33,725 nucleotides of DNA from Rhodocyclaceae bacterium. Lineage in GTDB: Bacteria > Pseudomonadota > Gammaproteobacteria > Burkholderiales > Rhodocyclaceae. The stretch covers positions 1-33,725 of the forward strand of contig JAGRFY010000093.1 in assembly GCA_020445765.1 (NCBI GenBank), given 5' to 3'. The position numbers were made by a program, and so were the translations under genes. Below are positions 3,650 to 33,111 of this stretch, one piece after another (position 1 is the stretch's first letter; every line of letters starts with the position of its first letter). The notes under the pieces are model-generated. The model saw nothing but the letters and a program-made list of their open reading frames with translations. It was not told the origin of the DNA and ran no database searches.

Positions 3650-4906
3650 TCAGGCAGCGGCCGGCAGCGTTTCGAGCCGCTGCAGCCATTGCTGTTGGGT
3701 TTCGGCGATGGCGGTGGCGCGAGCCGGCTGCGTGACCATCTGCAGGCCGGACAGCGCCAGGATGCGAAGTGGTTCGGCCGCGGACCAGTACGGCGAGCGG
3801 GACAACGCGCCGCCGCCGGCCAGGGCGAGCCGCTGCAGCACCGGCGGTGCGACCTCGCCGGGATCGATCCAGTGCGACAGCCCGCGTGCGCCGAGGGCGG
3901 GTAGCGGCACATCGAGGCACAGCCGGGCGAGCCGCGGCAGCATCGGCAAGGACGCGCGCGCCAGCGCAGCCACTTCCGGGTCTGCGCCAACCAGTGGATA
4001 ACGCATGATCAAGGCCCGGGCCAGTCCCTGCCACGGACCGTCGCCGAAGACCGCATTGCACATCTCGACGCCCAGCAGCACGCGCACGTAGGAGACCGGA
4101 TGCGGGTCGCCGGCAACGTAGCGCAGGACGTAGTCGGCACCGCCGGCCAGCACGTCGTGCAGGTTGGCGACGGCGGCATAGCCGGTCTGGACGAAGGCGT
4201 AGCTGTCGGCGGCGATCTCCGACGACCAGCCCGCCCACACCCGCGCCAGTTCCGATGATTCGCCAGACAGCGCGTCCTCGAGCGCGTCAGCCAGGGCCTC
4301 GTTCCAGCCCAGGATGTGGGCGACCTGATGACCCGTCTCGTGGATCAGCGCGGTCGGTCGCATCAGGTTGTGGCGGGCAATCTTGATCGTCGCCGCAGGG
4401 CTCAGCACGGTGGGGTCCCACAGCCGCAGGCCGGCCTTCAGGATGGCCGCGCCGAGGCCTCGATCGACGTAGCACAGCACCGGCGGCACCGGATGGCCGA
4501 GCGGCGCCAGCAGCCGTTGCATCGACAGCCCCGCGAGGCGGTCGAGGCCGGCCAGCGTGCGCTGCATCACCGGGTTGCTGCGGCTGTTGATGGCATCGCC
4601 GTAGAAATCGACCGTGGTCTCGAGCAGGCTGTAGCGCTGACGCAGGGCCACCAGACGCGCCTCGATGGCCGCGTCGTCGCCACCGTCGGCACCGGTCGCA
4701 CGCCGCTCGAGGCTCGCCAGCTCGGCCATCTGGCGGCTGGCGGCGTGGCTGAAGCTGTCGCGGATGGTGCGCACCAGGGCCGGCTCGAGGCTCGCCCAGG
4801 CATCCGGCGCCGCGATCTCGTCGAAGCGCAGCAGCGCCGCCAGCGCGCGCTGCCAGTGGCCGAGCTGGCGCCGCAGCGCGTCGCGGCGTGGGCTGGCGTC
4901 ATTCAC
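3650..4906 (-). CDS. Zincin-like protein (HETGH motif), 418 aa
   Basis: GTG start 4904-4906, overlapping the end of the 825-aa gene by 8 bases, so the two are probably translationally coupled. Residues 189-193 read HETGH in the context ALIHETGHQVAHILGW, the HExxH zinc motif. About 36 residues later comes SSEIAADSYAF, where E230 with D234 would suit the third ligand pattern ExxxD of gluzincins. The N-terminal 130 residues are helical; the remainder has no membrane segment or signal peptide. Seen: motif and spacing. Inferred: a metallopeptidase that may process or accompany the 825-aa protein. It could also be a catalytically dead or structural homologue. Unnamed family. Confidence 0.78.
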   Translation of the reverse strand: MNDASPRRDALRRQLGHWQRALAALLRFDEIAAPDAWASLEPALVRTIRDSFSHAASRQMAELASLERRATGADGGDDAAIEARLVALRQRYSLLETTVDFYGDAINSRSNPVMQRTLAGLDRLAGLSMQRLLAPLGHPVPPVLCYVDRGLGAAILKAGLRLWDPTVLSPAATIKIARHNLMRPTALIHETGHQVAHILGWNEALADALEDALSGESSELARVWAGWSSEIAADSYAFVQTGYAAVANLHDVLAGGADYVLRYVAGDPHPVSYVRVLLGVEMCNAVFGDGPWQGLARALIMRYPLVGADPEVAALARASLPMLPRLARLCLDVPLPALGARGLSHWIDPGEVAPPVLQRLALAGGGALSRSPYWSAAEPLRILALSGLQMVTQPARATAIAETQQQWLQRLETLPAAA

Positions 4907-25297: not shown

Positions 25298-26110
25298 TCA
25301 GGCAACGACCCGCTTCGGTGCGGTGCGGGCGTGGGTCGAGTACAGGGTCAGGCCGACAAAGGTCAGACCACCGACCAGGTTGCCGACGACGGTCGGGATC
25401 TCGTTCCACACCAGGTAGTCGTAGATCGAGAAGTTGCCGCCCAGCATCAGGCCCGACGGGAACAGGAACATGTTCACGATCGAGTGCTCGAAGCCCATGT
25501 AGAAGAACAGCATGATCGGCATCCACATGCCGATCACCTTGCCGGACACGCTGGTCGACATCATCGCGGCGACGACGCCGGTGGACACCATCCAGTTACA
25601 CAGCACGCCGCGGATGAACAGGGTCAGCATGCCGGCCGCACCATGGGCAGCGTAGCCGACCGTCCGGCCTTCGCCGATGTGACCGATCTTGACGCCGACC
25701 GCATTGGGCTCGGTCGAGAAGCCGAAGGTGAAGATGATCGCCATGAACAGGGCGACGGTCAGGGCACCGGCGAAGTTGCCGAAGAACACCAGCGTCCAGT
25801 TGCGCAGCACGCCGCCGAGGGTGACGCCTGGACGCTTGTCGATCAGGGCCAGCGGGGCCAGCGTGAATACGCCGGTCAGGAGGTCGAAGCCCATCAGGTA
25901 GAGCAGGCAGAAGCCCACCGGAAACAGGATTGCGCCCGCCAGCGGCTGGCCGGTCTGGACGGTGATGGTGATGGCGAAGGCTGCGGCCAGCGCCAGGATG
26001 GCACCGGCCATGTAGGCGCGAATCAGCGTATCGCGGGTGGACATGAAGACTTTGGATTCACCGGCATCGATCATCTTGGTGACGAATTCGGTCGGCATTA
26101 CGTAGGCCAT
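25298..26110 (-). CDS. Formate/nitrite transporter (FNT) family channel, likely nitrite (NirC-like)
   Basis: 270 aa from ATG 26108-26110, with GAGG 7 bases upstream; the open frame to 26308 lies within the untranslated leader. Six hydrophobic segments are visible, with the FNT hallmark regions LYLMGFDLLTGVFTLAPLAL, GNFAGALTVALFMAI, IRGVLCNWMV and FFYMGFEHSIVNMF carrying the pore His. FNT channels pass formate, nitrite or related anions across the inner membrane. The flanking nitrate/nitrite-responsive ANTAR regulator and the sigma-54 promoter argue for nitrite in nitrogen assimilation. Confidence 0.93.
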   Translation of the reverse strand: MAYVMPTEFVTKMIDAGESKVFMSTRDTLIRAYMAGAILALAAAFAITITVQTGQPLAGAILFPVGFCLLYLMGFDLLTGVFTLAPLALIDKRPGVTLGGVLRNWTLVFFGNFAGALTVALFMAIIFTFGFSTEPNAVGVKIGHIGEGRTVGYAAHGAAGMLTLFIRGVLCNWMVSTGVVAAMMSTSVSGKVIGMWMPIMLFFYMGFEHSIVNMFLFPSGLMLGGNFSIYDYLVWNEIPTVVGNLVGGLTFVGLTLYSTHARTAPKRVVA

Positions 26111-26130
26111 GGCGTTACCTCGAGAAGTAC

Positions 26131-26187
26131 AAAAAAACAAAAGGCGCCCATGCCGTACCTGCCACGAGCAGATGCGGAATGGACGCC
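26131..26187 (-). terminator. Intrinsic terminator in the FNT leader (attenuator)
   Basis: On the minus strand GGCGTCCATTCC (26187-26176) pairs with GGCATGGGCGCC (26154-26143): 12 positions with one G-U and one mismatch, followed at once by TTTTGTTTTTTT (26142-26131). This is a strong Rho-independent terminator, ending about 20 bases before the FNT ATG. Its left arm overlaps the second ANTAR hairpin, so the two structures exclude each other. Confidence 0.88.
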
Positions 26188-26253
26188 GTTGTCCTTGGAG
26201 CTCAGCGCCTGGGCGCTGCCCGATACCCCATTCCAGGCCGCCGTTGGCCATGG
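26181..26253 (-). promoter_or_regulatory. Two-hairpin ANTAR antiterminator RNA (P1 and P2)
   Basis: P1 (26253-26233): CCATGGCC - loop AACGGC - GGCCTGG, with one bulged base. P2 (26194-26181): GGAC - loop AACGGC - GTCC. Both hexaloops are identical and have A at position 1 and G at position 4, the recognised ANTAR-binding signature. Between them a further hairpin (CAGCGC/GCGCTG) can form. P2 uses the bases that form the left arm of the terminator. Established model: the nitrate-activated ANTAR protein binds P1-P2, which holds the terminator open and lets transcription reach the channel gene. The fit here is inferred from sequence. Confidence 0.85.
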
Positions 26254-26268
26254 ATTCGATCAGATAAA

Positions 26269-26284
26269 AGCAATCGCCGTGCCA
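26269..26284 (-). promoter_or_regulatory. Sigma-54 promoter of the FNT-kinase operon
   Basis: TGGCACG-N4-TTGCT on the minus strand is essentially the full -24/-12 consensus, with the GG and GC doublets correctly spaced by 10 bases. The predicted start site is near 26258, 5 bases before P1, so the transcript would begin almost directly with the antiterminator. Sigma-54 promoters need an enhancer-binding activator; NtrC is the natural candidate in this context. Confidence 0.85.
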
Positions 26285-26461: not shown

Positions 26462-27748
26462 TCAGTCGGCGCCCGAGGGGGCAGGGGCGATCGCGGCCAG
26501 CACCGACATCGTGGCCTCGGCGACATCGGCAATCCGCCGATTCTGTTCCATCGAAGTACGACGCAGGGTCTTGTAGGCTTCTTCCTCGGACATCCCGAAG
26601 CGGGCCATCAGCATGCCCTTGGCGCGCTCGATGGTCTTACGCTCCTGCAGCGCACGGCGCGCGGCGCCGAGTTCGCGCTCGGTGCTGGCGAGCCGCTCGC
26701 TCTGGGCGCGCAGGACCTGCACCAGCGCGCTTTCGCTGCTGCCGGTATGGGTGGTCGGCACGCCGGCCGGATCGAGCGTGCTGTCGCCACCGAGGAAGCG
26801 GTCGACCAGTTCTGCACTTTCCGGCGGAAAACGGCTGACGCCGTCTAGCAGGCCAGCGGAATCGGCGAGATCACGTTCGGCTTCGGCGATCAGCTCACCG
26901 CAGCGTTGCTGCAGCGCTGCCATCAGCAGGTCCTGCAGCCTGTCCATGTCCGTCAACCGCTCCGAACAGCAGCCGAACCATTCGTCGCTGGCGTCGGCAT
27001 CCAGTGCGGCGCCCGCGCTGGCCGAACACAACACGCGCCGCAGGCGCTCCAGCCGCGCCATGCAGGGGGCGGTCTGCAGCGCCTGCCAGCGCTCGACCAC
27101 GGCCGCGCCTGCAAATTCGGCAAACACCTGCATGTTGCGCTCCTGGCCTTCGATCAGGTGCAGGATGCGCTGCTGGTGCTGGCGTGTGGCCCGGCCGGAG
27201 GCGAACAGGGCGGCGCCGACCGCACGCTCCTGGCCAGCCAGTTCCTTGCCCTGCACGAGGTTGAACAGTGCCACCAGCAGCCGCGAGATGCTCGGATCGA
27301 CCGCGGAATCGGCGACGTCGAAAATCAGCGATACGAGTCCGGCAATCAGTCGGCTGTAGCTGATCACGGCCTCGTCCGCATTCATCTCGCGGGCAGCAAT
27401 CCGTTGGCGCATCGGGGGCAGGGCGTCCATGCCGAGCACCACCCAGGCCATCAGCGAGCACAGCGTGGCGCTGCCGAAGCCGGGTTCGTCGAGCTGGACC
27501 CGGAAGCATTCCCGCAGGTGGCTCTCGGCCGCCTCGCTGTCGGCGATCATCTGTCCCCGCTGGGCTTCGAAGCGGCTGCCACCCGAGGCCAGATACAGGC
27601 TCGAGGCGCCACGTTCCGCCTGCAGTGCGTGAACGAATGCGCCGATGGCGCCGACCAGTTCGGCGCGAGACGCGAGGTGTCGCAACTCCTCGATCTGCCG
27701 ATGCTTCGCGGTCAAGACGATGTTGGAGACTGAGAGCTCCATCAGCAT
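26462..27748 (-). CDS. nasR: NIT-ANTAR nitrate/nitrite-responsive antiterminator, NasR-like
   Basis: 428 aa. The N-terminal NIT (nitrate/nitrite-sensing) domain covers about 30-300, with HALQAERGASSLYLASGG matching the domain's ERGxS signature, all helical. The last 65 residues form the ANTAR RNA-binding domain (ALQERKTIERAKGMLMARFG, then MSEEEAYKTLRRTSMEQNRR), the same architecture as Klebsiella NasR. Nitrate or nitrite binding by NIT frees ANTAR to bind twin hexaloop hairpins in a leader RNA and stop termination. Exactly such a leader lies just downstream, ahead of the FNT gene, so it is the likely target. Start ATG 27746-27748, or the in-frame ATG two codons later; ribosome-binding site weak. 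Confidence 0.92.
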   Translation of the reverse strand: MLMELSVSNIVLTAKHRQIEELRHLASRAELVGAIGAFVHALQAERGASSLYLASGGSRFEAQRGQMIADSEAAESHLRECFRVQLDEPGFGSATLCSLMAWVVLGMDALPPMRQRIAAREMNADEAVISYSRLIAGLVSLIFDVADSAVDPSISRLLVALFNLVQGKELAGQERAVGAALFASGRATRQHQQRILHLIEGQERNMQVFAEFAGAAVVERWQALQTAPCMARLERLRRVLCSASAGAALDADASDEWFGCCSERLTDMDRLQDLLMAALQQRCGELIAEAERDLADSAGLLDGVSRFPPESAELVDRFLGGDSTLDPAGVPTTHTGSSESALVQVLRAQSERLASTERELGAARRALQERKTIERAKGMLMARFGMSEEEAYKTLRRTSMEQNRRIADVAEATMSVLAAIAPAPSGAD

Positions 27749-28049
27749 TGTTCCGTGCGGTCCATTCAGGAAATTGATACAGCAAGAAGCATGCTACCTT
27801 AAGAATGCTGCATTGCACCAACTTCGGGTCGCGCGGCGATCTGCCCCGCTAGCCAAGAAACGCCACTGAAATCGCGGCGGTAGGCGGCGCGGCAGGCCTC
27901 GCGCCAGGCGATCGGCTTGCTATGGCTTTTGGCGTAGCGGCGGGCTGCGGATGCCGCAATGCACCAACATAAGGCGGCTGGCCGCGCGTTGCACGCACTG
28001 GCGGTCGAATGCAGTGCGACTTCGCTCGCATGTGGAACAAGCGGGACAC

Positions 28050-28726: not shown

Positions 28727-29050
28727 TCACTGCACCTCGATCGCTATCGAGAACGCATCCTGGGCAGTCCCGGCACCTTCCCAGTCTCGCCGCAGGCTCA
28801 GAATCAATTCCCCTGAACCTGGCGACGATGCCGTGAAGCGGAGAACCCGTTGGCCCCCCGCTCCCGAAAGCGCAGACGTGACCGAGTATTCGTCCCCCAG
28901 GGTGGCCAGCACGTCGGGCCTCACGAATTGCCAGCGATACCCGGTCGTCGGGTTCTCATCGAGCCGAACGACCAGAATGTCGCCGACGCGCACACGAACC
29001 CGACTGTCTGCCGAAGCCCTGGTGAGATTGATCTCAGTCACCTCGTCCAT
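28727..29050 (-). CDS. Chagasin-like cysteine peptidase inhibitor (family I42)
   Basis: 107 aa from ATG 29048-29050, overlapping the upstream stop as TGATG (GTG one codon earlier is possible). All three inhibitory loops of chagasin are recognisable: NPTTGYRW (33-40), GAGGQRVLRF (63-72) and LRRDWEG (86-92, in place of the usual RPW). Chagasins block papain-family peptidases by inserting these loops into the active-site cleft. No signal peptide, so it should be cytoplasmic. Its place in one operon with a papain-like peptidase suggests it protects the producer from that enzyme. Confidence 0.88.
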   Translation of the reverse strand: MDEVTEINLTRASADSRVRVRVGDILVVRLDENPTTGYRWQFVRPDVLATLGDEYSVTSALSGAGGQRVLRFTASSPGSGELILSLRRDWEGAGTAQDAFSIAIEVQ

Positions 29051-29535
29051 CACCAGACATACATCTCGTGAATCATGCCGTCGGATTCCTCACGATAGTT
29101 GACGCTGGTCTGGCTCTGCTTTGCATTCGCACCCAGCATCGTCAGCGTGATGGTCACGCTGTCCGAGTTGTTTGCCAGCTTGCGCCATCCGACGCCTGCA
29201 ATATGAACCCAGGAGTTCCGATTCTGGTTGATGGCCCACAGCGCCGAAACCCGCTTGCCGTTGACCCAGGCACCGACTGCCCCGGAGGACGCGCTCTGTC
29301 CCGCACTTTCGGGATCCAGGGTCGGTATCGAATCGCCTCCGCCGGCGCTGGCATCGGACTGGTCGACTTGCGGGGGTTGCTGGTTCGGCATCTGTTCGCT
29401 CATGACGTGGTCTCCTTGATCGGTAAGGCTGCTGGCCGGCGGTGCCGCCGAAGGGACGGCACTTCCCCCCATCGACTGTCCGTCCGACGCGCCGCGCTGC
29501 ACGCGGCTGCAATCACATTCCTGGTTCTGGTTCAT
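29050..29535 (-). CDS. 161-aa protein sharing the peptidase's C-terminal domain
   Basis: The last 74 residues (AWVNGKRVSALWAINQNRNS, ending MIHEMYVW) align along their whole length with the C-terminal domain of the papain-like peptidase upstream (W-NG--V--LW---Q-RN-W--I, GWR, AK, VN, YV[FW]). The N-terminal half is Gln/Ser/Pro-rich and disordered. Two in-frame starts each have a good ribosome-binding site: ATG 29533-29535 behind AGGAGG (overlapping the peptidase stop) and ATG 29401-29403 behind AAGGAG, so two forms may be made. No signal peptide. Family unknown; the shared domain may be a docking or lectin-like module. Confidence 0.78.
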   Translation of the reverse strand: MNQNQECDCSRVQRGASDGQSMGGSAVPSAAPPASSLTDQGDHVMSEQMPNQQPPQVDQSDASAGGGDSIPTLDPESAGQSASSGAVGAWVNGKRVSALWAINQNRNSWVHIAGVGWRKLANNSDSVTITLTMLGANAKQSQTSVNYREESDGMIHEMYVW

Positions 29536-29548
29536 GATTCCCGCCCTC

Positions 29549-30649
29549 CTAGAAGACGTAGACTTGCTTGATGATGCCGCCTTCCTGGTAGATGTTCACC
29601 GGGCTCTTCGTCAGCTTCGCGCTCGACAGGTCCGTCAGCAGGCACGCGAGTATCGTGTCGTTGTCGAACGCGATCCGACGCCAGCCGATGCCGCCGTCGA
29701 TGTACGCCCATGCATTACGATCTTGGTCATTGCCCCACAGACCCAGCACCTTGCGCCCGTTCAGCCAGCCGGTTTCGACGATGCCGTCGACCGCCCACAT
29801 CTCGGCGTCGATGCCGCACTGGCCGTAGGCAATGTTGAAGAAGCCTTCGTCGCCCCAGCCACGTCCCCAGCTGTTCTTGCAGATCCAATAGCCGCCTGCG
29901 TCGTTGTAGCCGACACAGCTGACGCAGTGCCCGCCGGCTACAGCGCCACTGACGTGCCGGTAGACCCCGCTCCTGTAGGAGAAGAAATCGTTGTAGACAG
30001 TGAACGCGCAGGAAAGCGGTCCCCGCGTCGAGATCCATTCCTTCATCGCCTGGACGGAATTGATGCTGTGCCAGTTCGAGATCCGTGTCAGCCGGCTCTG
30101 CCAATTCGAACATCGATTGCTGCAGTTCTGGTCACCGGCCGTGTAGGGATAACAGGCCTCGTCGACGACACCGTCGGTCTTGAACGCGTCGAGACCCTTG
30201 TCGCACCACCAGCCATTCGAGCAATTCCTGCCTTGCGCACGCGCGATGCAGTAGAACAGGTGCGCCTCCGAAAAATCGACTGCCAGATTCGCATCATTGC
30301 GCTGCCGACGAAAGGTGCCCTCGACCGTCGCGGCACTGCCGAAGGCGACACACGAACCGCATCCGCCCTGATCGACAACCGGCGAAACGAAGTTCCGTCC
30401 CCCCACATCGCGCAGGTCGTAGCTTGCGGGCGCCGTTGCGGCGGTGACGGCAGCGGATTCCCGGTTGGCCGCTGCCGTCGCTTCCCGTTCCTCGAGGGTC
30501 GGTGCGCCCGCGGGCGGGACCGCCCCCAAGCGCAGGCGCTTTTCGCTGTCCGACAGCTCGGATACGCTCGTCGTCCCGGGGACCCAGGATTCGCCCGCCT
30601 CCGTGACCGCACTTTGCAGTGCTGCGGGATTCATTCGTTCTAGCATCAT
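29549..30649 (-). CDS. Papain-like (C1A) cysteine peptidase with extra C-terminal domain
   Basis: 366 aa from ATG 30647-30649 (GGAG 8 bases upstream). A short N-terminal segment with SWVPGTTSVSELSDSEKRLR precedes the peptidase domain (about 76-290). The full catalytic set is present: Q94 and C100 in VVDQGGCGSCVAFG, H241 in AGGHCVSCVGYN, N259 in CKNSWGRGWGDEG, plus many Cys for disulfides. Residues 294-366 are an added domain found again in the next protein. No signal peptide is visible, which is odd for a disulfide-rich peptidase and suggests release by another route, such as the neighbouring injection system. Followed 13 bases later by the 161-aa gene and then by a chagasin-like inhibitor. 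Confidence 0.9.
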   Translation of the reverse strand: MMLERMNPAALQSAVTEAGESWVPGTTSVSELSDSEKRLRLGAVPPAGAPTLEEREATAAANRESAAVTAATAPASYDLRDVGGRNFVSPVVDQGGCGSCVAFGSAATVEGTFRRQRNDANLAVDFSEAHLFYCIARAQGRNCSNGWWCDKGLDAFKTDGVVDEACYPYTAGDQNCSNRCSNWQSRLTRISNWHSINSVQAMKEWISTRGPLSCAFTVYNDFFSYRSGVYRHVSGAVAGGHCVSCVGYNDAGGYWICKNSWGRGWGDEGFFNIAYGQCGIDAEMWAVDGIVETGWLNGRKVLGLWGNDQDRNAWAYIDGGIGWRRIAFDNDTILACLLTDLSSAKLTKSPVNIYQEGGIIKQVYVF

Positions 30650-31342
30650 GATGTATGTCTCCAATGACAGCGCAGCGCGCGACCGGATCCGTGAATTCGG
30701 ATCGCGCCGATGGCATGCTCCTGCTACCTTGCACGTACATGACAAAGGCATTTCCTGAGTACGTGATTGCCTGCAGCACGTGCTTGCGCCGATTGCGCGT
30801 GGCAGGATTCACGATGGCTCGTCACGTCCGGCGGTGCCGCGATTTGGTCCAGAGGCCGGAGTGCCGGCCCGCTCCGATGGAGATGCCAGCCAGGGAATCA
30901 GATGAGTCCTGTCATCCCTGGGTGAAGCGTGCGCCGCAGATTCAGGATTCCCAATTGCCCAGGTCACACGAACGATGTGCATCCGTTCACTTGCATGCCA
31001 AACGGATGACTCAGGCAACCATCGGGATCGCAAGGACCGGCTCGAGCCGGGATTCGTATCGGAACGGGGAGGCGGCGACTCGTCCCGTTGGTCAGCGCTG
31101 CTCTGGCGTCGCGATTGCGGCGACCAAGTCGATTTCGGCCATCGCAATAGCGAACGACACTGCGCCATGCTTTGACGGGCGATGCCGTGTACGAATCACG
31201 AACTTGCGGCTTGGCACAGAAAACCCACCAATTATCAGGATGTTGAGGCACATCGTCAGGCGCTAGGCGCGTCGCGGCTGTCATTCCGGCGCCGGTTTCG
31301 ACCAGCCGAACAGCATCCGTGACATATGCCGCACGGCCTCGG
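30650..31342. other. Divergent region between the peptidase and sheath operons
   Basis: About 690 bases without a convincing gene. A 14-bp perfect palindrome CCGGCTCGAGCCGG is at 31037-31050. Frames on both strands are short and not protein-like. The minus-strand promoter for the peptidase operon should lie at about 30660-30800, but I see no clear -35/-10 pair. Confidence 0.45.
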
Positions 31343-31370
31343 TTGAAATGCCGGGGTCACCATCTATAGT
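31343..31370 (+). promoter_or_regulatory. Sigma-70 promoter of the sheath operon
   Basis: TTGAAA (31343-31348), a 16-base spacer and TATAGT (31365-31370); each hexamer matches consensus at 5 of 6 positions. The start site would be near 31377, leaving a 5' untranslated region of about 150 bases before the sheath ATG. Confidence 0.65.
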
Positions 31371-31524
31371 CCGAGCATGGCATGCGAAACGGTTCGACCG
31401 GCGCGCGCAGGACAGAAGCGTTTCCAGGTGGTCGAAGGCGTGCCCGGAGGTCTGCAACCGAGGGGGTGGCGCGGCGCCCGGCGTAGGCGCAGGGCCGGCC
31501 CCTCATGGACGAGGAAGGATCATC

Positions 31525-33111
31525 ATGCCTGCAGCATTGAGCTATCCCGGCGTCTACATCGAGGAAATTCCCAGCGGCGTCAGAACGATCACCGGCGTCG
31601 CGACATCCATCACCGCCTTCGTCGGCCGCGCCCTGCGCGGGCCGGTGGACCAGCCGGTCAGGGTCCAGAGCTTTGCCGATTTCACGCGGCTCTTCGGCGG
31701 GCTGTGGCAGCCGGCGACGCTCGGCTATGCCGTCAACCAGTTCTTCCAGCACGGCGGCAGCGATGCGCTGATCGTTCGGGTGTTCAACGGCGCGGCGACC
31801 GACACCGCGACGCTGACCCTGCCGACCGCCAGCGGCAGCCTGGTGCTGGAGGCCGCTAGCCCCGGCGAATGGGGCAGCACGCTGCGGGTGGTCGTCGATC
31901 ACGCGACCCGCGACACCACCGACGCCCTGCTCTTCAACCTGCGCATCGAGGAACTCGACCGACCGGGCGGCAGCAGGGTGATCGCGTCCGAACAGCATCG
32001 CAACGTCTCGGTCGATCCGGCCAGCCAGCGCTTCGTCGATACGGTGCTGAACGAGCAGTCGGCGCTGGTCAACGTGCGCACTTCGGCGCCGGTCGACGAG
32101 AGCCCGAGCGACGGTACCGTGGCGATCGCCGCCGGCGACGGCTCGGCGATCGCGCCGAATACCCTCGGCGGCAACGGCAGCGCGATCGCCAACACCCAGA
32201 TCGACGGTGACCGGGCGGCACGAACCGGCATCTACGCACTCGAGCACGCGGATCTCTTCAATCTGCTGTGCGTTCCGCCGCTCGAGCGCGAGGTCGATGT
32301 CGCCGACGCCAGCTGGGCGATCGCTGCCGCCTACTGTCAGGAACGGCGCGCATTGCTGATCGTCGATCCGCCGGCGACCTGGACGGCCAGCGCCAGCACC
32401 GCGATCGCGACCGCAGAGGCGGGCGTCAACAGCCTGCGCGGCACGATCGGCAACGATGACGCGATCAACGTCGCCGCCTACTTCCCGCGCCTGCGCATGG
32501 CCGACCCGCTGTCGGAGAACCGGCTGGCCGAGTTCGCGCCCTGCGGCGCCGTCGCCGGCATCTTCGCCCGCACCGACGTCCAGCGCGGGGTGTGGAAGGC
32601 GCCCGCGGGCCTGGCGGCATCGTTCTCCGGCGTCCAGGGGCTCACCTACACGATGACCGATGCCCAGAACGGCGTGCTCAACCCGGTCGGGCTCAACTGC
32701 CTGCGCAGCTTCCCGGTGGCCGGCCATCTGGTGTGGGGCGCGCGTACGCTGGCCGGCGCCGACCTGCTGGCGTCTGAATGGAAATACGTGCCGGTGCGCC
32801 GCTTCGCGCTGTTCCTCGAGGAAAGCCTCTACCGCGGCACCCAGTGGGTGGTGTTCGAGCCCAACGACGAGCCGCTGTGGGCGCAGATCCGGCTCAACAT
32901 CGGCGCCTTCCTTCAGACCTTGTTCCGCCAGGGCGCGTTCCAGGGCGCCAGTCCGCGCGAGGCCTACTTCGTCAAGTGCGACCGCGAGACCACGACCCAG
33001 AACGACATCGATCGCGGCGTCGTGAACATCGTCGTCGGCTTCGCGCCGCTCAAGCCGGCCGAATTCGTCGTCATCAAGATCCAGCAGATGGCCGGTCAGG
33101 TCGAGCTCTGA
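31525..33111 (+). CDS. Contractile injection system sheath protein (phage tail sheath family)
   Basis: 528 aa. Begins ALSYPGVYIEEIPSGVRTIT and GVATSITAFVGRA, the standard opening of tail-sheath proteins. The C-terminal sheath domain shows GLNCLRSFPVAGHLVWGART, RRFALFLEESLYRGTQWVVF and the ending VVGFAPLKPAEFVVIKIQQM, the form seen in extracellular (Afp/PVC-type) injection systems. Sheath subunits form the helical contractile sleeve around the tube. ATG 31525 has GAGG/AAGGA upstream; the frame extends to 31348 but without family resemblance. The tube gene follows 14 bases later. Confidence 0.95.
   Translation: MPAALSYPGVYIEEIPSGVRTITGVATSITAFVGRALRGPVDQPVRVQSFADFTRLFGGLWQPATLGYAVNQFFQHGGSDALIVRVFNGAATDTATLTLPTASGSLVLEAASPGEWGSTLRVVVDHATRDTTDALLFNLRIEELDRPGGSRVIASEQHRNVSVDPASQRFVDTVLNEQSALVNVRTSAPVDESPSDGTVAIAAGDGSAIAPNTLGGNGSAIANTQIDGDRAARTGIYALEHADLFNLLCVPPLEREVDVADASWAIAAAYCQERRALLIVDPPATWTASASTAIATAEAGVNSLRGTIGNDDAINVAAYFPRLRMADPLSENRLAEFAPCGAVAGIFARTDVQRGVWKAPAGLAASFSGVQGLTYTMTDAQNGVLNPVGLNCLRSFPVAGHLVWGARTLAGADLLASEWKYVPVRRFALFLEESLYRGTQWVVFEPNDEPLWAQIRLNIGAFLQTLFRQGAFQGASPREAYFVKCDRETTTQNDIDRGVVNIVVGFAPLKPAEFVVIKIQQMAGQVEL

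Follow-up and report, generated by a model that had tools for sequence, protein, structure and literature searches.

Among the closest described relatives of the leader analysed here is that of nasF in Klebsiella oxytoca. As the accessible parts of the papers describe it, the NIT-ANTAR regulator NasR acts there by attenuation on two hairpins, P1 and P2, whose A1/G4 hexaloops are closed by a C:G pair (PMC7496416, PMC3369931). Another ANTAR system, NasT/NasS, controls the nasABGHC operon of Paracoccus denitrificans, with leader hairpins and Ntr control, and according to the available text this operon contains a NirC-like nitrite transporter, NasH (PMC5424462, PMC5217062). The ANTAR RNA set of Ramesh et al. 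2012 follows a dual-hairpin rule with a terminator overlapping P2, and the accessible sections of that paper place such RNAs in front of genes for nitrite reductase and for the transport of nitrate and nitrite (PMC3369931).

We found a leader of this type in the window, by which we mean the whole 33.7-kb stretch of DNA analysed from a Rhodocyclaceae bacterium, between the gene of a NIT-ANTAR regulator and that of an FNT-family channel (Table 1). The first-pass annotation had described this interval as a sigma-54 box followed by twin hairpins and an overlapping terminator, and this observation was confirmed as a whole. With the nasF leader it shares the NIT-ANTAR regulator, the P1-P2 arrangement and the C:G-closed A1/G4 hexaloops, and with the set of Ramesh et al. 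the dual-hairpin rule and the terminator that overlaps P2. Unlike in Klebsiella, its target would be an FNT channel, probably together with a phosphatase-kinase fusion, and two residues of the regulator's off state differ; unlike in Paracoccus, where NasT is the regulator and the nitrite transporter lies inside the operon, the regulator is of NIT-ANTAR type and the channel gene comes first. Since ANTAR leaders before nitrite transporters are already in print, the leader type itself is known, and the earlier contrast with a "usual" nitrate-reductase target was too strong. The less usual traits are rather that an FNT gene stands first and that a phosphatase-kinase lies behind it. Altogether, the covariation of the hairpins, the association with ANTAR genes, the kept RNA-binding residues of the regulator and the gene neighbourhoods argue for a NasR/NasT-type attenuation leader, and we consider it very probable that the interval combines a sigma-54 promoter with a NasR-type transcription-attenuation leader.

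Table 1. Position of the leader, its elements and the flanking genes in the window.
Feature	Position	Strand	Basis
NIT-ANTAR regulator, NasR-like, 428 aa	26462..27748	-	PF08376 E 2e-49, PF03861 E 1e-20
Leader, flanked by the genes of the NIT-ANTAR regulator (26462-27748) and the FNT channel (25298-26110)	26284-26111	-	
Sigma-54 -24/-12 element TGGCACGGCGATTGC, TGGCAC-N5-TTGC	26270..26284	-	sequence match
Hairpin P1, core GGCC-AACGGC-GGCC	26249-26236	-	fold, covariation
P1 extended by UCCA/UGGA with one bulge	26254-26232	-	-12.5 kcal/mol
P1-P2 linker, own predicted hairpin	26195..26231	-	fold, -16.0 kcal/mol
Hairpin P2, GGAC-AACGGC-GUCC	26181..26194	-	fold, -5.5 kcal/mol
Intrinsic terminator hairpin GGCGUCCAU...AUGGGCGCC	26143..26187	-	fold, conservation
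Terminator arms GGCGUCCAU and AUGGGCGCC	26187-26179 and 26151-26143	-	sequence
U-rich tract TTTTGTTTTTTT	26131..26142	-	sequence
FNT-family channel, 270 aa	25298..26110	-	PF01226 E 8e-63
PP2C phosphatase - Ser/Thr kinase fusion, 575 aa	23420..25147	-	PF13672 and PF00069

The two hairpins with identical loops that had been announced are seen both in the fold and in the sequence. AACGGC forms the loop of P1 and of P2, with six nucleotides, A1 and G4, on 4-bp cores, and a C:G pair, read from the sequence, closes it in both. The pair follows the ANTAR-target rule (two hairpins, 6-nt loops with A1 and G4, stems of at least three pairs), and the intrinsic terminator overlaps P2, as the definition of ANTAR-target leaders demands. 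Folded on its own, the terminator is the most stable of these elements (-31.0 kcal/mol, z -5.9, with none of 200 shuffles equally stable). Its left arm consists of P2 loop positions 4-6 and the P2 3' arm, so that P2 and the terminator are mutually exclusive; the U-rich terminator borrowing its left arm from P2 was thus correctly recognized. When P1 and P2 are forced, the predicted energy is -47.6 instead of -62.9 kcal/mol. This penalty of about 15 kcal/mol suggests that the terminator is the default and that the RNA would need help to read on. By itself, the P1-P2 stretch shows no unusual stability (z -1.6, 16 of 200 shuffles as stable). A simple promoter and terminator scan, limited to loops of 3-8 nt and sigma-70 type promoters, missed this terminator.

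Sigma-54 promoters carry GG at -24 and GC at -12 at a fixed spacing, and the box of the window displays both, correctly spaced. It is a perfect element, where "near-perfect" had been claimed, and the sole match without mismatch to TGGCACNNNNNTTGCW in the whole window; at up to two mismatches, matches in the window are at background level (19 found, 14.4 expected). Assuming a start about 12 nt past the GC, transcription is predicted to begin near 26258, about 4-5 nt before P1, which agrees with the five bases proposed earlier. Expression only under nitrogen limitation, also proposed, may follow from the sigma-54 box. In the 186 nt upstream in the window, no NtrC dyad was found, only a half-site, and dyad-like NtrC matches are found upstream of three of the twelve aligned leaders (L012, L024, L025).

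In a scan whose rules were written after the window had been seen, 7 dual A1/G4 hairpins were counted in the window, which is a background level (shuffle mean 3.95, largest 13). Dual hairpins with identical loops occur once, versus a shuffle mean of 0.017. The combination of dual hairpin, sigma-54 box and overlapping terminator also occurs once and in none of 60 dinucleotide shuffles.

We then turned to the family. Searched with the FNT protein, 42 of 150 family genomes had a match at E<=1e-20, and 30 loci were read (L002-L031), 15 of which were chosen by eye for a terminator scan. An alignable leader precedes FNT in 12 of the 30, the window included; in 11 others the 1 kb upstream of FNT holds a NirB or NirD homologue instead, and neither the sigma-54 box nor the hairpins were seen before FNT in any of them. 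Neither an aligned leader nor an upstream NirB/NirD was found in the remaining seven (L006, L009, L011, L022, L027, L028, L031). Three of the scanned loci were left out of the alignment: in L006, P1 and P2 are about 250 nt apart, and in L009 and L022 the sigma-54 box is present and the hairpin pair is not clear. Across the 12 aligned leaders, TGGC and TGCT of the sigma-54 box are invariant, 97.9% of the P1/P2 cells are paired, and five of the eight pairs have changed on both sides, including three of the four P2 pairs. In a shuffle control that does not correct for relatedness, four of five P1/P2 measures were reached by none of 500 shuffles and the fifth by six. The terminator keeps 89.8% of its pair cells, a value reached by 0/500 shuffles; its covariation is weaker, with three pairs showing two-sided change (reached by 47/500).

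From these 12 leaders, with the window sequence as one training row, we built a covariance model named R1. The covariance search suggested by the first-pass annotation had a mixed outcome. Rfam gives zero matches in the window at the gathering threshold, and its best match to the leader, the narK RNA RF03032, scores 23.3 bits against a gathering value of 43.2, so that the leader is not filed as a member; R1 gives 79.6 bits (E 7e-18) for this same leader, a training row, as its one strong match in the window's genome, the next best being only at E 0.165. The narK RNA alignment spans the sigma-54 box, P1 and the P2 loop, and Pseudomonas P11 (RF00625) aligns to the same leader with 13.7 bits against a cut-off of 70. 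The leader thus resembles both families over the same box and loops but stays below both gathering cut-offs.

R1 has a strong match in all six same-genus genomes (E 2e-16 or better) and, at E<=0.01, in 70 of 150 family genomes. Of these 150, 93 have ANTAR genes. Every one of the 62 genomes with a leader at E<=0.001 has an ANTAR gene, versus 31 of the 88 others, and at E<=0.01 the figure is 66 of 70, counts that come from related and not independent genomes; the four without an ANTAR gene (G015, G053, G068, G090) are weak matches. The proposed ANTAR attenuation is in this way supported comparatively, by hairpin covariation, by ANTAR-gene co-occurrence, by the kept NasR RNA-binding positions discussed below and by the same leader in relatives.

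Away from FNT, 18 family loci with the leader were read for the gene that follows. In 15 of them the next gene encodes a PF13379 (NMT1_2) protein, which we take to be the NrtA/NasF-type nitrate-binding protein of the classical NasR operon, and the other three have a NirB-like N terminus (L062), a tetrapyrrole methylase (L075) and a fragment of a kinase homologue (L073). At L073 (1501-2069) the leader is followed by a phosphatase-kinase homologue fragment 57-62% identical to the window's kinase, with no FNT, perhaps a remnant of a decayed FNT-kinase locus. Named genomes were also searched with the FNT protein; of at least 567 relatives the best 80 were read, which are 78-98% identical and, going by their titles, include Rhizobiales, Burkholderiales, Rhodocyclaceae and Actinobacteria. 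All 80 loci (922 kb) were searched with R1, which at E<=0.01 gave 23 matches in 22 loci, three of them (L107, L133, L141) being training sequences, and no match in the other 58. The leader starts 135-224 nt before FNT in 15 of these best-80 loci and 169-222 nt before NirB in seven; the 23rd match is a second one in L155, 381 nt before FNT. With E up to 0.1 there are 31 matches, one of which is antisense inside FNT (L114). Within this best-80 sample, an ANTAR match is found in the fetched locus of 13 of the 22 leader loci versus 7 of the 58 others. Judged from these arrangements, the leader, where found, sits on whichever gene leads.

The nirB, nirD and NarK-like genes of the window's genome are on another contig (L036), and the genome encodes six PF00384 molybdopterin proteins. 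At 3872-4048 of this 4-kb contig there is a nirB leader, cut before any sigma-54 box. The five same-genus nirB loci (L036, L187-L190) show diverged hairpins with A1/G4-type loops, a GGATC hairpin in four of the five, and a sigma-54 box about 200 nt upstream in L187-L190, which have enough upstream sequence. R1 scores all five at 12.0-18.3 bits, mostly for the sigma-54 part in L188 and L190, and genome-wide none is significant (0.08 for G104). These sequence features suggest nirB as a second ANTAR-leader target in the same genus.

The regulator gene ends about 0.18 kb from the leader and encodes the one ANTAR match of the window's genome. Its NIT and ANTAR domains and the PDB entry that it matches best, NasR of K. 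oxytoca (4akk, E 3e-46), bear out the NasR-like neighbour announced earlier. According to the accessible part of the NasR study, positions R340, K341, K345, K347, W362, R366 and N373 matter for RNA binding (PMC7496416). Five of these seven are identical in the window protein (R340, K341, K347, R366, N373) and two are conservatively changed (K345R, W362Y); the same available text reports that NasR K345R behaves close to wild type and that tyrosine at position 362 is usual among NIT proteins (PMC7496416). We compared 16 NIT-ANTAR proteins chosen from the fetched loci, the window's included. R340, K341 and K347 are invariant and K345 is R in all 16, position 362 is Y in ten, R366, which NasR needs for RNA binding, is Q in six, and N373 is G in two. 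On the evidence of these sequences, the RNA contacts vary in part of the branch, as do the off-state residues considered below.

Upstream of the regulator gene, on the minus strand, we also noticed two copies of TTGGTGCA[AT]TGC[AG]GCA (27821-27806 and 27967-27952), which are the only exact matches in the 4.84-Mb genome; at up to one mismatch there are six genome matches, against two for the reversed control. A sigma-54-like TAGCATGCTTCTTGC with two mismatches follows at 27796. The TTGGTGCA copies could possibly be enhancer sites of the regulator's own promoter, and an exact motif of this type was found upstream of none of the regulators in seven relatives.

One would wonder whether the regulator responds to nitrate as NasR does. 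The ANTAR leader could be real and the NIT-ANTAR protein largely constitutive, or tuned to another signal, in which case the sigma-54 promoter would mainly decide. The NIT domain is strongly matched, however, and R176, a nitrate-pocket residue of NasR, as well as R236, which we take to be another, are kept in the window protein and invariant in all 16 proteins. The argument for a constitutive regulator comes from the NasR off-state residues E191, R193 and Q194, which are not family-defining but bear on nitrate control: they read Q, Q and Q in the window protein, only Q194 being kept, and in the 16 proteins position 193 is Q in 15 and E191 is kept as E in one. It also comes from position 362, which is F in six of the 16 (Y in the window), and in the accessible text K. 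oxytoca NasR W362F retains substantial binding without nitrate (PMC7496416). As the residues considered are those of K. oxytoca and other pairs could serve, the replaced off-state residues rather suggest that the nitrate switch of this branch may use other contacts, and we regard a constitutive regulator as unlikely. Much harder to believe is a coincidence, in which the intrinsic terminator of the NIT-ANTAR gene would happen to adjoin an unrelated FNT promoter and the loops would mean nothing. The leader does lie between two co-directed genes, and dual A1/G4 hairpins are by themselves at background in the window. But the sigma-54 box stands upstream of the hairpins, both hairpins covary, the full combination is absent from the 60 shuffles, and other proteobacteria have the leader at the same place ahead of FNT or NirB, among them 9 of the 22 leader loci (best 80 of at least 567) with no ANTAR match in the locus.

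The attenuation leader being preferred, there is still the nature of the channel, which could carry formate, bicarbonate or hydrosulfide and not nitrite. The FNT protein scores 212.4 bits with PF01226 (gathering 34.6), and among the NCBIfam models FocA (124.0 bits) exceeds NirC (NF008595, 44.3 bits against a curated cut-off of 293), both staying far below cut-off. From these scores, the protein is filed as FNT family and not as a NirC equivalog. Its best PDB match by sequence is LCIA, presumably of algal origin. The neighbourhood tells otherwise, since in 44 of the 80 named loci (best 80 of at least 567 relatives) FNT is preceded, within 1 kb, by a homologue of NirB or NirD, as it is in 11 of 30 family loci. 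The FNT gene is thus found alongside genes of assimilatory nitrite reduction; moreover, the leader is of the nitrate-assimilation type. For Dechloromonas aromatica, the available text describes a NirC-like gene adjoining nirBD as a putative nitrite transporter (PMC2907700). The product is therefore most likely an assimilatory nitrite channel, as far as gene context can tell, and another substrate appears improbable. A phosphatase-kinase homologue is found beside FNT in all 30 family loci read, and among the named loci, again the 80 best from at least 567 relatives, a kinase follows FNT within 500 bp in 48 and overlaps it in three more (L145, L148, L153). The first-pass annotation had counted the phosphatase-kinase among the targets of the leader; co-direction and adjacency speak for this, and the two genes are probably co-transcribed. 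Among the same best 80, seven loci from genomes titled as Actinobacteria (L137, L139, L163, L168, L172, L173, L177) carry an FNT 78-84% identical with no nearby kinase match, and only L177 has a NirB match in the locus; these copies may reflect horizontal transfer or contamination.

We propose the following two-key control. The sequence anatomy, its conservation and covariation, the ANTAR-gene association and the gene neighbourhoods are direct observations; the events themselves are modelled on what is described for Klebsiella and Paracoccus. When nitrogen is short, the locus would be transcribed by sigma-54 RNA polymerase, presumably helped by an activator of NtrC type, from a start about 4-5 nt upstream of P1. 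Unless something intervenes, the terminator would form in the nascent RNA and transcription would stop ahead of the FNT gene. The NIT-ANTAR protein, loaded with what we infer to be nitrate or nitrite, would grip the A1/G4 hexaloops of P1 and P2 and, with P2 held, the terminator would lose its left arm. Transcription could then continue into the channel, which would carry nitrite for assimilation, and into the presumably co-transcribed phosphatase-kinase. A widespread FNT subfamily would in this manner be tied to nitrite assimilation, with a control that is testable.

A parallel can be drawn with narK RNA and P11. When Rfam was run on 20 of the 30 R1 loci, narK RNA matched the leader in 11 and P11 in four, all below cut-off; with the search enlarged in this way, the window's own locus (L037) had no Rfam match at E<=1. 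Conversely, searching 200 genomes of the order with RF03032 gave 23 loci at E<=0.001 (L198-L220), three of them over cut-off. With L217 and L220 counted as misses, both A/G1-G4 hexaloop hairpins are present in 18 of the 23, a U-tailed stem starting in the P2 region in 19, and an ANTAR motif within 1.4 kb upstream in 11. In the 21 loci scanned for it, the next gene encodes a PF13379 binding protein in 15, an MFS transporter in two, and a NirB-like N terminus, a molybdopterin oxidoreductase, a response-regulator C-terminal domain or an EAL domain in one each. These hexaloop pairs, U-tailed stems, ANTAR motifs and next genes suggest reading narK RNA as, for the most part, an ANTAR leader together with its sigma-54 promoter, which offers a ready explanation for this Rfam family; no statement to that effect was found in the open-licence literature. 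P11 of P. aeruginosa is described, in the accessible part of the source, as a small RNA regulating a nitrogen-assimilation operon (PMC12080996). The P11 family could perhaps be a sigma-54 plus ANTAR leader of nitrate-assimilation genes, and the full text of open-licence papers yielded no statement linking P11 with ANTAR or NasT. Taking all this together, we lean slightly towards a joint hypothesis. Sigma-54 box, P1-P2 and terminator would form a portable two-key cassette placed before the first nitrogen-oxide gene (nrtA/nasF type, nirB, FNT or MFS transporter) in beta- and alphaproteobacteria; narK RNA and partly the P11 "sRNA" would be this same leader, P11 being its terminated product; and the off state of betaproteobacterial NasR would use an interface other than that of Klebsiella. 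If P11 is likewise a terminated nas leader, studies treating it as a free-standing small RNA would have to weigh that.

Elsewhere in the window, a papain-family cysteine protease (29549-30751) has a chagasin-type (I42) protease inhibitor nearby (28727-29053). A phage-tail-sheath-like protein is encoded at 31348-33111 and may open a contractile or phage-tail-like cluster that continues beyond the window.
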